This document shows positions 20,035 to 37,071 of a stretch of 64,000 nucleotides of DNA, piece by piece. The notes beneath the pieces are model-generated. The model worked only from the letters and a program-made list of their open reading frames with translations. It was not told where the DNA came from and made no database searches. Position numbers and translations under genes: made by a program. The DNA comes from Halorussus caseinilyticus (GTDB lineage Archaea > Halobacteriota > Halobacteria > Halobacteriales > Haladaptataceae), in contig NZ_CP119809.1 of the NCBI RefSeq assembly GCF_029338395.1, positions 248,001-312,000 of the forward strand, given 5' to 3'. Positions within the stretch are counted from its first letter, which is position 1; the number at the start of each line of letters is the position of its first letter.

Positions 20035-20637
20035 TCAACCGTTCGGGAGTGAACCCCCGCCGAACACCCCCCGAACCGCCCCGCAGACCCGCTCTGACAG
20101 CGGTTTGGCAACGCGGTTCCTGCCGACGCCGAGGTACGCGCACTGGGGCGAGAACTCCCCCGAGCGCATCCGGAGCGACAGCGCCACCGCGCGGTGGTTG
20201 CCGTCGGCGACGTACCGCGGGACGCACCCCTCTCGCGTCGAGACGACCAGCGGACCCTCGGGCATCTCCTCGACGAACTCCAGAACCGTCCGTACGTCCA
20301 CGTCCGTCTCGGCCGCCAACTCGTCGGGGTCGCCGCGAGCGATTCGGTCGGCGGCGGCACACACCGTCCCGTCCGGCGAGAGCGCGCGCCACCGGAGACT
20401 CGGCGGTCCCTCGACCAACTGGAGTCCCTCGAAGTCCGCCCGGTGGAGCGTCGTCTCGTACCATCGGACGGGGGCGTCCCGCCAGACGAACGCCGCCGCG
20501 CCGGGCTTGCGGTCCAGCAGTTCGTCCAGCGCCTCGCGTTCGGACAGCGATTCGATTGGGAACCAGTCCACTTCGGGGTGACTGCGCTCCACCCGAAGCC
20601 ACTCCCGGAGGACTTCGACCTGACTCACGTGGCGCAT
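20035..20637 (-). CDS. ParB/sulfiredoxin-like domain protein
   Basis: A 200-residue soluble protein. The C-terminal half contains RYVADGNHRAVALSLRM, like the GNHR/GxHR motif of ParB-type and sulfiredoxin-fold proteins that bind phosphorylated nucleotides. The N-terminal half (MRHVSQVEVLREWLRVERSH) is helical. It precedes the dehydrogenase gene by 95 nt on the same strand. Assignment to the fold is from the one motif; function unknown. A nucleotide- or pterin-phosphate-binding role is possible. Confidence 0.65.
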   Translation of the reverse strand: MRHVSQVEVLREWLRVERSHPEVDWFPIESLSEREALDELLDRKPGAAAFVWRDAPVRWYETTLHRADFEGLQLVEGPPSLRWRALSPDGTVCAAADRIARGDPDELAAETDVDVRTVLEFVEEMPEGPLVVSTREGCVPRYVADGNHRAVALSLRMRSGEFSPQCAYLGVGRNRVAKPLSERVCGAVRGVFGGGSLPNG

Positions 20638-20921
20638 TCGCCGAGGCTACGTGCCCAAGTCACTCAATTCCGTTCCCCGGACCGCCGCGCTCGCGGGTTC
20701 AATAGTTGTCTCGCATGCGCGTGACGCGCACGCGCTACCCGCGTGCCGCCGACGCCGAGGCGTCGATTCGACCTCGCTCGCGCGGAATTAACAGATAATT
20801 TACCTGATGGTGGCCGCGTCTCACCGCGGAGTTACTCGCCGTTTCGCTGTCTCTTGGTTGCGTCCGGGAGTTCGACGGTCTCCGGGTATTAAGTCCGGTA
20901 CATCCTAAGCCTCGCCCCGGT

Positions 20922-21668
20922 ATGGTATCACTCGACACGTTCGACGCGCTGACGTACTGGACGCTCTGGATGACCGTGATTGCGATGGCGGCGGGCGCAG
21001 TCGTCCTCTACGTCGAAGGCCGAGGCATGGACGGAGAGGGCCGGGAACACGCGGTCGTGACCGTCTTCGTCCCGGTCGTCGCCGCCACGATGTACCTCGC
21101 CATGGCGCTCGGGTTCGGAGTATCCTGAATCTCGCTTACGGGCGAGGAGCAACTCGTGTTCTGGGGGCGGTACGCCGACTGAGTGGTGACGACGCCGCTG
21201 TTGTTGCTGGACCTCGCGCTGTTCGCGGGCGCGGACCGCGAGACCGTCGTCACCTTGCTCGGTCTCGACGTGTTCATGATAGTCACCGGCTTCTTCGCGG
21301 CGATTTCGGGCCACCCCGTCAACCGATACGTCTGGTGGGCCGTGAGTTCCGGCGCGTTCGTCGTCATCCTCTACGTCATCTTCGCCGAACTGCCGGGGTT
21401 CGCCAGCAGTTACGGCGACGACCGGGCCAGCAGTTTCGGCACGCTCCGGAACCTGCTGGCGGTGCTGTGGTTCGCCTACCACCTGCTGTGGCTCGTCGGC
21501 ACCGAAGGAGCGAGCGTGATTCCGCCCGGCGTCGAGACGGTGGGCTACGCCGTCCTCGACATCACCGCCAAGGTCGTGTTCGGTTACGCTCTGCTGAGTA
21601 GCGTCGGGTCGCTCGCTCCGCGCCACCGTGGGGCCGAGACTGGCGCTGGCGTCACCGCGGACGACTGA
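20922..21668 (+). pseudogene. Bacteriorhodopsin-like opsin with two in-frame TGA codons
   Basis: The frame from ATG 20922 to TGA 21668 (249 codons) encodes a full seven-helix microbial rhodopsin except for TGA at codons 69 (21126-21128) and 87 (21180-21182). All helices remain in one frame. Key residues: Arg83 and Asp86 (RYAD, counterparts of R82/D85), TTP, Asp97 (LLLLD, proton donor), Trp/Tyr of helix F (LWFAYHLLWL, with His replacing the usual Pro) and Asp213/Lys217 in YAVLDITAKVVFGY, Lys being the retinal site. The second TGA stands exactly where family members have the near-invariant Trp86. TGG-to-TGA mutation would explain both. TATTAAG and CATCCTAAG lie 25-35 nt before the ATG. No carotene oxygenase gene is nearby. 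Either a young pseudogene or readthrough. Confidence 0.9.
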
Positions 21669-21842
21669 GCGGGTCGTCCCGCCGACTCTCCGCGCCGGTC
21701 GGAACCCCCGGATACCGACGACCATTCTCTCGTACAAAAGTAATAGCGCGTATCGGGCCAGCGGTTACGAATATCGACAGCTCGCCCCGCTAAACCGTCC
21801 GAACGAAGGATTTATCACCGGAAGACCGATTAGTAATATAAA

Positions 21843-22037
21843 ATGTCGGTCCGATACCTCCTCCTCTTGGTGGGTCTCGCGCTTCTGGCTCTCGCGTGGG
21901 TCGGTGCCGGGTCCGCCGTCTACCTCGTGTACGGCGTCAGATGGGCTGGCGTCTTGCTCGCCGGGTTCGGGGTCGCCCTCGCGCTGGCACTGGTGTACAA
22001 AATAGTCGGTCAGAAGAGCGCCGCAGTCGAGAGCTGA
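21843..22037 (+). CDS. Two-span small membrane protein
   Basis: A 64-residue hydrophobic protein with two predicted membrane helices (YLLLLVGLALLALAWVGAG and WAGVLLAGFGVALALALVYK) joined by a short turn and a polar tail (GQKSAAVES). ATTAGTAATATAAA lies directly before the ATG at 21843. No family recognised. Confidence 0.65.
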   Translation: MSVRYLLLLVGLALLALAWVGAGSAVYLVYGVRWAGVLLAGFGVALALALVYKIVGQKSAAVES

Positions 22038-22048
22038 ATCTCAGCCCT

Positions 22049-23062
22049 CTAGAAGTTCCACCACGTGTCCATCCAGCACGACCAGTTGACCCGGTTGAGA
22101 GTAACGTCGTTCTGGAACTGCCCCTTCGTCTTGAGACGAACGATGTCGAGTTGCGTGCCCGAGGACTTCTCGTCCACGCGGCACGTGCTACCCGGTTCGA
22201 TTTCGTTGGGGTTGTGGCGGTTGGTGTAGCCCCAGATGTCGTACTTCCACTCGCCCTGCCCTTCGGACGGTTCGCCTTGCTCCACGATGTCGGTGTCCGA
22301 CGGGAAGTCGTAGCTGAACTCGAAGCTCGGAAGCCCAATCGAGACGTTGTAGGGCGACTCCTGAACGACCGGACCGCGCGAGTGGAGTTGTCGGCCGCTC
22401 GCGTTGCCGTGGTTCCAGTCGTGGTACGCCCACCCGACTTGGTTCATCCAATCGCTGCCGTCGTACTCCGACCCGTCTTTGCTGGTGCCGGGCACCATTC
22501 CGGAGTACTGGTGGAATCCATGCATGTCCTCGTCGTAGTCGTCGTTGCTCTCCTTGAGCTTTCGCCAGTCGTAGTTCGAGTAGATGACGCCGTACGGTGC
22601 GTTCTCGCTGTAGTACTCGTCGCTCGTCTCGTACTCCCAGCCACTGATTGCCTGCGTCGAGAGGTCACCCTGCGTCGAGAGTTTCCCGGACTGCTCGAAG
22701 CGCTTTTGGGCGTTCGCGGCTCGTGCGCGAGCGTTCTCGACGCTCTGTCCGGTCGCCACCGACTCGATGTGCTGTCGGGGCTTGCCGTTCGGACCGAGCG
22801 TGACAACGTAGTCCACGATGTCGAAACCGTCCTCGACACCGGGGTCGCTCATCGGGAGGGGTCGCTCGACCGACCCGCCTCGGCGCTCGAACTCGTGAAC
22901 GAGACTCATCCGTAGCCTGTGGATGTCTTCGACGCTGACTGGGTTGTTGGCGTCTCCGCGCAGACGCCGCGTCCCGGGTCCTTTCTTCGCAGTCGCAAGG
23001 TTCGGGCTGAACGCCGCCGCGGTAGCGATTCCGGCCGTCTTCAAGAAGTTTCGTCGTTTCAT
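22049..23062 (-). CDS. Tat-exported Trp-rich protein of unknown function
   Basis: A 337-residue protein. The start MKRRNFLKTAGIATAAAF at 23062 gives a classic Tat signal, so the 15 extra upstream codons are rejected. The mature protein is Trp-, Tyr- and Asp-rich (NYDWRKLKESNDD, WAYHDWNHG, WSCWMDTWWNF at the very end) and has two Cys (GSTCRVDE, NWSCWM) that could form a disulfide. No family is recognised; a secreted surface or inhibitor protein is possible. Confidence 0.8.
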   Translation of the reverse strand: MKRRNFLKTAGIATAAAFSPNLATAKKGPGTRRLRGDANNPVSVEDIHRLRMSLVHEFERRGGSVERPLPMSDPGVEDGFDIVDYVVTLGPNGKPRQHIESVATGQSVENARARAANAQKRFEQSGKLSTQGDLSTQAISGWEYETSDEYYSENAPYGVIYSNYDWRKLKESNDDYDEDMHGFHQYSGMVPGTSKDGSEYDGSDWMNQVGWAYHDWNHGNASGRQLHSRGPVVQESPYNVSIGLPSFEFSYDFPSDTDIVEQGEPSEGQGEWKYDIWGYTNRHNPNEIEPGSTCRVDEKSSGTQLDIVRLKTKGQFQNDVTLNRVNWSCWMDTWWNF

Positions 23063-23249
23063 CTTTTTCTCTGGTTGTTGCAACCAAATATACGTAAGTC
23101 GCGCCACTAAATATTATTAATTATCTAAGAAAAGTAAAAGCGTGACCGAGTGGCCACTGACGAACCATCGTTCAATTGTCGCAAGTAGAACATGCGCTAA
23201 TTATTAGTTGAATAGAAAAATAAAAGCACTTCCCTAATAATTCAAATCT

Positions 23250-24014
23250 ATGGGAACCGTCCACGAACGACCCTCCCTCGAACTAATCGTCAAACGTTCA
23301 CACATCCTCGAACACGTTATCGACGGCACGACGAGAAAAAGTGAGATTCAAAAACGTTGTAGTGAATCGCGCTCAACCGTCTATCGCGCGCTGGAGCAAC
23401 TGACCGAACAGGGAATCCTCGCGGAGCGCGGTCGGGGGTACGTCCCCACCTCGTTCGGAAAACGGCTATTTCGGGAGTACGAGCAGTATCACCGACGGGC
23501 GACCGACGTGTCCGATGCGAAGGACATCCTCGAAACGCTTCCAGACTCGGGAGTTCCGAACGAAGTGTTCATCGACGCCGACATCGAGTACCCGAATCCC
23601 TATTCGCCGACGACGATGCTGACGTGTTTCACCGACGTTCTCCACACCTCCTCGCGGGTAGCGTGGTTGTCCCCCGTCCTGTACCCCCAATACGTCGATA
23701 TTTGGACCGAACTCACCGACGACGAGACGGTTCGCACGCTCCTGCTCCTCCAATCGGAAGCGATGACCTATCTCGAACGTGAGGACCCCGACGCGAGCGA
23801 CACGCTCGCGGACGCGAGTCACGTCTCCCTCGAACAGAACGACGCGGAACTCCCGTTCGGACTCGTCGTCACCGATAGCTCCGACCCCGTGATGATACTC
23901 ATCGCTCACGGCGACGACGGAGGATTTCGCGGAATCGTCCGGAACTCCGCCGACGCCGCCGTCGAGTGGGCGCGCGGCGTCTTCGCAGACTACTGGACGG
24001 GGCCCGAACTTTGA
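23250..24014 (+). CDS. HTH regulator, FilR1/DUF1724-type
   Basis: A 254-residue transcriptional regulator. The winged helix occupies about residues 10-75 (IDGTTRKSEIQKRCSESRST, then YRALEQLTEQGILAERGRGY). The C-terminal domain (about 95-250) reads like the haloarchaeal/methanogen FilR1 (DUF1724) ligand domain, ending FRGIVRNSADAAVEWARG. A second member of the same type is at 53850-54641. It is divergent from the Tat-exported protein at 22049-23062 across an A/T-rich 190-nt promoter region, and might regulate it. Confidence 0.85.
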   Translation: MGTVHERPSLELIVKRSHILEHVIDGTTRKSEIQKRCSESRSTVYRALEQLTEQGILAERGRGYVPTSFGKRLFREYEQYHRRATDVSDAKDILETLPDSGVPNEVFIDADIEYPNPYSPTTMLTCFTDVLHTSSRVAWLSPVLYPQYVDIWTELTDDETVRTLLLLQSEAMTYLEREDPDASDTLADASHVSLEQNDAELPFGLVVTDSSDPVMILIAHGDDGGFRGIVRNSADAAVEWARGVFADYWTGPEL

Positions 24015-24071
24015 CCGCTGAGGTCGGGAACGGAACCGGTAGGCCGCTCCGGACTCTCTCCCCGGTCTAAC

Positions 24072-24278
24072 TCACGGGTCCTCCTCGCTGGTCTCACCGT
24101 CTTTCTGGAGCAACTCGTGGATGTCCTCTTCGTCCAACAGGTCCACGAGACTCTCACCGTCTTCCCACGCCGCGAGTTCCTCGTCGGTCAACCAGTTCGA
24201 GGGGTCCCGGCCCGTCGCGTCCATCAGCGATTCGAGTCGGTCGTCTACGTCTTCGGGGTCGTACCCACCCACGGGCAT
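24072..24278 (-). CDS. Small acidic protein
   Basis: A 68-residue, strongly acidic soluble protein (MPVGGYDPEDVDDRLESL through GETSEEDP) with no membrane segment. The composition is typical of genuine haloarchaeal small proteins, and it is not a shadow of a longer gene on the other strand. No family recognised. Confidence 0.6.
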   Translation of the reverse strand: MPVGGYDPEDVDDRLESLMDATGRDPSNWLTDEELAAWEDGESLVDLLDEEDIHELLQKDGETSEEDP

Positions 24279-24377: not shown

Positions 24378-24623
24378 CCCTTTCCTCGGGTACTCGTTCA
24401 GTCGTCCCGCTCTCGTGGAGCGGTCGGCACGCGAGAGGGACAGTAGAAAAATAAAACTCTGCCTTTGAGAATTCTGTAGTTGGTTCTCGACGCCTAACGG
24501 CGCTCCCGAACGTCGAAGCGAGAGCTCCGACTTCTCGACAGGCTCGCCGATTTGATATATCGAAATATAGTTTACGAACTCGAGGCGAAACCGACAAACG
24601 CCCGGAACCGAAAGCGATACGCG

Positions 24624-25640
24624 ATGGACTGCGACAAATGCGGCCGGGAGGCGGTGATGCACGCCGCCTATTCGGGGTTGCACCTCTGCGAGGACCACTT
24701 CGTCGCTTCCGTGGACAAGCGCGTCCGGCGTCGCATCCGGGAAGACGACCTCGTGCCCAGCGACGCCACCCCGGAGAATCCCCAGACGTGGGTGGTCGGC
24801 CTGTCCGGTGGCAAAGACAGCATCGTCCTCACCGACATCCTCCACCGGACCTTCGAGAAGGACCCGCGCATCGAACTCGTCGCGCTCACGATTCACGAGG
24901 GCATCGAGGGCTACCGCGACGAGAGCGTCGAGGCCTGCGTGGAGTTGACCGACGAGTTGGACATCCGCCACGAACTCGTCACCTACGAGGAGGAGTTCGA
25001 CGTGCGGATGGACGACGTGGTGGAGAAAGACCCCGAGGGGATGGCCGCCTGCGCGTACTGCGGGGTGTTCCGCAGAGACTTGCTCTCGAAGTACGCCGAG
25101 AAGTACGACGCGGACAAACTCCTGACAGGCCACAACCTCGACGACGAGGCAGAGACCGCGCTGATGAACTTTCTGGAGGGCGACGTGGCCCAAATCGCCA
25201 AGCACTTCGACGCCAGTCTCGGTAGCTTCGAGGAGCGCGAGTCGCCGGGCGACTCGGACGCGAGCGGGGGACCGCGAGCGCGCGGCGAACAGGACGACTT
25301 CGTGCCGCGTGCGAAACCGCTCCGGGACGTGCCCGAGAAGGAAGTCGCGCTCTACGCCCACCTCGAAGACCTTCCGGCCCACATCACGGAATGTCCCCAC
25401 GCCAGCGAAGCCTACCGCGGCGAGATTCAGGAACTGCTCCACGGACTCGAAGAGAACCACCCCGGCACTCGCCACTCGATTATGGCGGGCTACGAGGAAC
25501 TCGCCGCCCTCGCCGCCGAGGAGTTCGGCGCGCGCGAGGAGGGCGACACCGACCTCGGCGAGTGCGACCGGTGTGGCGCGTCCACGACCCGAAACATCTG
25601 TCGGAAGTGTTCGCTCCTCGACTCGATTCACGCGGTCTGA
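24624..25640 (+). CDS. ncsA: tRNA 2-thiolation enzyme NcsA
   Basis: PP-loop ATPase (TIGR00269/TtuA type) that thiolates wobble U34 of tRNAs, in haloarchaea with a ubiquitin-like sulfur carrier (SAMP2). The 338-residue product has an N-terminal zinc finger (MDCDKCGRE), PP-loop (VGLSGGKDSI), the central ACAYCGVFRR motif, GHNLDDEAET, and a C-terminal zinc finger (CDRCGA, CRKCSLLD). Start at 24624 places the first CxxC at residue 3; the 24 codons before it look unrelated. A likely non-conserved insertion (ERESPGDSDASGGPRARG) is encoded partly by a 9-bp inverted repeat (25238-25256). The adjacent convergent ftsZ2 is the usual haloarchaeal neighbour. Confidence 0.94.
   Translation: MDCDKCGREAVMHAAYSGLHLCEDHFVASVDKRVRRRIREDDLVPSDATPENPQTWVVGLSGGKDSIVLTDILHRTFEKDPRIELVALTIHEGIEGYRDESVEACVELTDELDIRHELVTYEEEFDVRMDDVVEKDPEGMAACAYCGVFRRDLLSKYAEKYDADKLLTGHNLDDEAETALMNFLEGDVAQIAKHFDASLGSFEERESPGDSDASGGPRARGEQDDFVPRAKPLRDVPEKEVALYAHLEDLPAHITECPHASEAYRGEIQELLHGLEENHPGTRHSIMAGYEELAALAAEEFGAREEGDTDLGECDRCGASTTRNICRKCSLLDSIHAV
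25238..25256. repeat. 9-bp inverted repeat inside ncsA
   Basis: CGAGTCGCC (25238-25246) pairs with GGCGACTCG (25248-25256) around a single base. It encodes the start of an insertion-like segment in NcsA. Confidence 0.6.
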
Positions 25641-36499: not shown

Positions 36500-37071
36500 T
36501 GTGCGGCGGCCGGGGCACCCGCCTCGACAGCGAGACCGAGAAACCCCTCTTCGAGGTCGGCGGCCGACCGATGCTCGCGCGCGTCGCCGACGCCCTCGCC
36601 GGAAGTCGAGCCGAGACCGCTCACGCTGTCGTCTCGCCCCACGCGCCCGAGACCCGCGAATTCGCCGCCGAGCGCGCCGACCTCGCCCCCGTCGAGACGC
36701 CCGGCGAGGGCTACGTCGAGGACCTGCGGGCCGCCCTGCGAGCGGTCGAACCGCCGGTTCTCACGGTCGCCGCGGACCTGCCCCTCCTCGACGCGGACGC
36801 CGTGAACGCGGTCCTCGACGCCTACGACGAGGCTCGCCGCGGGGTCCCCGAACCACCCTCGAAGACGGTCTGCGTCCCGGCCGCGCTCAAGCGTGAACTC
36901 GGCGCGAGCATCGACACCGCCTTCGAGCGCGACGGTCGGGAAGTGGCCCCCGCGGGCGTCAATATCGTCGCCCAGACGGATACGGAAACCATGTACGAGA
37001 CCTACGACGCACGACTGGCAGTGAACGTGAATCGACTCCCGGACGCCGACCTCGCGGAGGCGTTGCTGTGA
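36484..37071 (+). CDS. cobY: Adenosylcobinamide-phosphate guanylyltransferase CobY
   Basis: The archaeal, non-orthologous replacement for CobU: transfers GMP from GTP to adenosylcobinamide phosphate. The 195-residue product has the nucleotidyltransferase signature [33 protein letters not shown] and PAGVNI. The GTG at 36484 is preferred over the ATG at 36499 because the first beta strand (VDAIVM) would otherwise be lost. It overlaps cobS by 16 nt and cobT by 4 nt. Confidence 0.95.

Follow-up and report, generated by a model that had tools for sequence, protein, structure and literature searches.

An opsin frame with two in-frame TGA codons in Halorussus caseinilyticus: a probable young pseudogene of a light-driven proton pump

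The opsin frame considered here, which lies in a window of 64,000 nucleotides of Halorussus caseinilyticus DNA (the whole stretch that was analysed), is very probably what remains of a bacteriorhodopsin-type gene for a light-driven proton pump: a pseudogene, young and without function, in a light-pump cassette that is being lost piecemeal; we put the probability of this reading at about 0.92. As a pseudogene it is ordinary in kind, and it provides no evidence for the readthrough of stop codons. An earlier sequence-only reading of the window had named a very young pseudogene as the simplest explanation, and that proposal is now supported by intact orthologues in the same genus, by the replacement of Pro187 by His, by a raised dN/dS and by the disappearance of the partner gene. 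The features of the locus are collected in Table 1.

Table 1. Features of the opsin locus, in positions of the window
Feature	Position	Strand	Remarks
Left syntenic flank gene	20035..20637	-	No Pfam match; common to congeners
Upstream block, promoter-like	20870..20921	+	Begins GGGTATTAAGTC; conserved with intact orthologues
Bacteriorhodopsin-type proton-pump opsin, probable pseudogene	20922..21668	+	248 codons, two internal TGA codons; syntenic intact orthologues in G004, G007 and G015
Codon 69 TGA, B-C loop	21126..21128	+	CGA (Arg) in 3/3 orthologues; one C-to-T transition
Codon 87 TGA, helix C	21180..21182	+	TGG (Trp) in 3/3 orthologues; Trp in 40/40 homologues; one G-to-A transition
161-codon open frame	21183..21668	+	GTG start directly after the second TGA; without Arg83, Asp86 and Trp87
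Codon 187 CAC (His), helix F	21480..21482	+	Pro in 40/40 homologues; equivalent to bacteriorhodopsin Pro186
Unrelated segment, ~2.4 kb	21702..24066		In place of the 643-codon fused gene (L105 10522-12453); homology break
Small membrane protein (predicted), 64 codons	21843..22037	+	Open frame in the replacing segment
Secreted protein, Tat signal	22049..23107	-	In the replacing segment
Winged-helix regulator (FilR1_middle / HVO_A0261_N)	23250..24014	+	In the replacing segment
Right syntenic flank gene, TtuA/NcsA-like PP-loop protein	24552..25640	+	Common to congeners

Translation of the frame on the forward strand confirms the TGA codons at positions 69 and 87 and ends on a further TGA, the terminal codon. 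With both internal stops read through, the protein matches Bac_rhodopsin (PF01036) at 1.3e-55 over residues 14-227 according to Pfam, and a search of the genome returned a 181-bit opsin match that was flagged as holding two TGA codons. The best solved relatives are deltarhodopsin (PDB code 4fbz) and archaerhodopsin-2 (PDB code 1vgo). The proton acceptor Asp86, the donor Asp97 and the retinal Lys217, which the sequence-only reading had listed as kept, are indeed in place, as are Arg83 and Asp213; together with the full-length domain, the acceptor, donor and retinal Lys mark the frame as descended from a proton pump. In these five residues and in its whole-length Pfam and PDB matches it resembles deltarhodopsin, archaerhodopsin-2 and bacteriorhodopsin, but it departs from these haloarchaeal pumps, and from what a working proton-pump gene would have, in that the frame is interrupted at two codons and that the family-invariant Trp of helix C and Pro of helix F have given way to TGA and His, respectively. 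Judging from the conserved upstream block, the transcription signal of the opsin has apparently not yet decayed. A protein product is not to be expected from the frame.

Intact orthologues of the opsin were found in three same-genus genomes among the 59 related genomes searched (G004, G007 and G015; 81-83% identity). The remaining congeners have a more distant opsin or none, and a scan of a collection of genome contigs gave no closer opsin orthologue. The three genomes are syntenic with the window across about 15-20 kb, and the frame that is disrupted in the window is intact in them at the same locus. In many genomes, paralogues of the flank gene seem to be interrupted by TAG, but these codons turned out to be ordinary C-terminal stops.

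The orthologues give the ancestral codons. The sequence-only reading had placed codon 87 at the near-invariant Trp of helix C and explained the stop as a change from TGG to TGA, and this is borne out by both the orthologues and the wider homologues (Table 1). Its expectation of TGG at both codons is not: codon 69 was never Trp, being CGA in every congeneric orthologue, and the wider homologues have Arg or mixed residues there. With CGA and TGG at the respective codons in all three orthologues, the comparison indicates that the two stops arose independently, by a C-to-T and a G-to-A transition that replaced two different amino acids. When GC-to-AT mutation is doubled in a codon model, these two kinds of change account for about one third of all expected nonsense changes. 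Aligned with 40 homologues (41 opsins in all), the window opsin deviates from the fully invariant columns at two sites, the stop at Trp87 and codon 187. The earlier statement that the frame shows no indel and no lost motif therefore stands as regards frameshifts, of which there are none, and falls as regards the rest, since, relative to its orthologues, the frame lacks one in-frame codon in each of two loops (A-B and B-C), and the Pro of helix F is now His. The codon missing from the A-B loop was probably deleted on the window lineage, as suggested by the lengths of the outgroups; the difference in the B-C loop is ambiguous as to lineage and cannot be polarised.

The second component of the cassette is missing from the window altogether. 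In the three genomes with an intact opsin, a single long gene (643 codons in G004) lies within about 0.2 kb after it. The second half of this gene matches Brp (PF15461, 1.4e-72) and is a Brp-type beta-carotene 15,15'-dioxygenase that forms retinal; the first half has no Pfam match and, on our own reading of its sequence, appears to resemble lycopene cyclase. Weak matches to the lycopene-cyclase family PF18916 (22-33 bits) are found in the same three genomes away from the opsin locus, and this family is therefore uninformative here. Homology between the window and its relatives stops at 21701, 33 bases past the opsin stop (L105 10400), and resumes at 24067-24079 (L105 12463), just past the end of the fused gene. 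The fused gene is thus precisely absent from the window locus and unrelated DNA stands in its place. A PF15461 search gave no match anywhere in the window's genome (and matches in 25 of the 59 other genomes), and the whole fused protein used as a query likewise found nothing there. The cassettes of the three relatives and of the window agree in having an orthologous opsin at one and the same position within a shared pair of flank genes. They differ in that the relatives keep an intact opsin and the fused gene, whereas the window has a broken opsin and other DNA instead of the fused gene.

Selection on the opsin was analysed with a four-taxon codon maximum-likelihood model (our own implementation) with the TGA codons masked. 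The window branch has a dN/dS of 0.148 against 0.048 elsewhere, an approximately threefold rise (2dlnL of 10.2); the profile likelihood places the value at roughly 0.085-0.27, and comparison with a dN/dS of 1 gives a 2dlnL of about 29. The rise is not genome-wide, because seven neighbouring genes show none on the window branch (2dlnL of at most 1.7). The sequence-only reading had proposed dN/dS after the TGA codons as a test. For codons 88-248 alone the rise is not significant (dN/dS of 0.10, clearly below 1; 2dlnL of 2.4), so relaxation confined to the downstream part is not what is seen; selection is relaxed over the whole frame, with the excess mainly upstream of the first TGA (dN/dS of 0.29 for codons 1-68; heterogeneity 2dlnL of 9.5 for a test that was picked post hoc). 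Among the changes behind the excess in codons 1-68 are several in helix B from Ile or Ala to Val. If the opsin was first fully constrained and then neutral, approximately 10% of the branch would have been neutral, corresponding to roughly 40 substitutions. Nonsense changes are expected to make up 1.1-3.6% of neutral changes, and two stops among some 40 are therefore unremarkable and fit a neutral phase. The selection data suggest a recent inactivation that is loosely dated, and residual use would be compatible with them. The points that speak against a pseudogene, namely the lack of a frameshift, the apparent constraint on the part after the stops and the conserved promoter-like block, all fit recent inactivation.

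Both stops differ from the ancestral codons by a single transition, which would also agree with a sequencing or assembly error in a gene that really reads CGA and TGG and is intact. We regard such an error as improbable: two random errors would leave the change of an invariant Pro, the raised dN/dS and the lost partner gene unexplained, and the opsin is the only gene with internal true-frame stops among the window genes that have relatives in the congener stretches fetched. Apparent TGA or TAG interruptions elsewhere in the window (for example at 36894, 44786, 57582 and 59938), judged by third-position mismatch patterns and by the frames of the open reading frames, belong to frames that do not code for protein or to stretches outside genes.

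Readthrough of both TGA codons, by suppression or local recoding, to a full-length functional opsin is more improbable still. The frame is otherwise open, its dN/dS after the stops remains well below 1 and the promoter-like block upstream is conserved, all of which would be expected of a gene in use. An Arg and a Trp have been replaced, however, and a single inserted residue cannot restore both. Reassignment or suppression of TGA as Trp would be right at codon 87 and wrong at codon 69; as the latter was Arg, the opsin would not be restored by a suppressor that inserts Trp. No tRNA with a UCA anticodon is present among the 45 tRNA matches of the genome, in a search that could miss tRNAs with long introns, and the tRNA-Trp, found separately by pattern, has the anticodon CCA. 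One 86-base tRNA-family match (L090; G000:C1:1760785-1760870, minus strand) was left unassigned by ARAGORN and is possibly a degenerate tRNA; its presumed anticodon loop, picked by eye, is GCTCTCC and does not contain TCA. TGA is an ordinary stop elsewhere, as the sequence-only reading had held, and terminates the opsin itself as well as other genes. The only archaeal stop-codon readthrough reported so far is that for selenocysteine and pyrrolysine (PMC8211752). Recoding to selenocysteine is not supported: at codon 69 the homologues show Arg or a mixture of residues and at codon 87 Trp, not the Cys or selenocysteine that it calls for. The readthrough that had been entertained as the exciting alternative is made unlikely by the Arg ancestry of codon 69, the loss of Pro187, the raised dN/dS on the branch and the absence of the Brp gene, the partner in retinal synthesis. 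No better odds can be given to a version in which near-cognate tRNAs read both TGA codons at a useful rate in this gene only, so that some full-length opsin is made and works with retinal that is scavenged or made in another way, although the low dN/dS past the stops is compatible with it. Bacteriorhodopsin cleaved within the B-C loop can reassemble in vitro, and codon 69 lies in that loop with a GTG directly behind the second TGA, but assembly of an N-terminal helix A-B piece with a reinitiated C-terminal piece is the least credible reading of all: pieces begun after codon 69 end at codon 87, the second TGA falls after Asp86, and the piece from codon 88, which lacks Arg83, the acceptor Asp86 and Trp87 and is therefore no pump by itself, does not allow one to be rebuilt.

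For the pseudogene, we propose the following history. The ancestral locus consisted of the opsin followed by the single fused gene, as it does to this day in three species of the genus, and the lycopene-cyclase-like and Brp products of the fused gene would together have made retinal for the pump. On the window lineage the fused gene was exchanged for unrelated DNA, and opsin function would have been lost through the two independent transitions that turned CGA (codon 69) and TGG (codon 87) into TGA, together with the replacement of the invariant Pro of helix F by His. Ribosomes would now stop at codon 69 and leave a 68-residue fragment of helices A and B. What we infer is the functional death of the opsin and a causal link between its loss and that of the fused gene; the order of the two cannot be told.

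A chain leading from no Brp to no retinal and on to a dead opsin is plausible rather than proven. A second opsin in the window's genome, which is sensory rhodopsin II-like and intact (L106 7452-10516; G000:C1 about 2300950-2304020), directly follows a transducer gene and overlaps its end. It has a dN/dS of 0.05-0.06 against 0.09-0.10, and is thus under normal constraint in a genome without a Brp/Blh match, which argues against taking the loss of retinal as proven; given this constraint, the organism may obtain retinal by another route. A carotenoid cleavage oxygenase of the RPE65 family that is encoded in the window's genome (PF03055; L109 1501-2907, G000:C1:1415912-1417318), with PDB entry 6vcf as its closest solved relative, is a possible alternative source. 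Three genomes of the comparison (G001, G002 and G010) have an opsin and no Brp match. A PF03055 gene is present in some of the Brp-less congeners and is not found in G001 and G002. Retinal production has been shown in a rhodopsin-bearing bacterium that has none of the known genes for retinal (PMC7734400).

Comparison of the locus between the same two flank genes in 11 congeners places the window in a wider pattern. The opsin and the fused gene are both present in three of them (those with the intact orthologues), the fused gene alone, with the opsin absent, in five (G003, L145; G013, L146; G009, L147; G014, L148; G008, L152) and neither in the remaining three (G006, G016 and G017). The window's genome adds a further state, with a dead opsin and the fused gene missing. 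Patchy gain and loss of rhodopsins is known in haloarchaea (PMC1885257), and bop clusters with crtY and brp have been described along with strains that keep the accessory genes without bop (PMC7755889). As in those haloarchaea, the opsin or its accessory genes have here been lost in pieces; unlike those cases, the window shows the loss in mid-course, at a point where the dead opsin can still be recognised. The finding takes one haloarchaeal case off the list of candidates for stop-codon readthrough and offers in its place a clean snapshot of the erosion of a phototrophy cassette, in which the locus within one genus is complete, reduced to the fused Brp gene, empty, or left with a freshly dead opsin without Brp.
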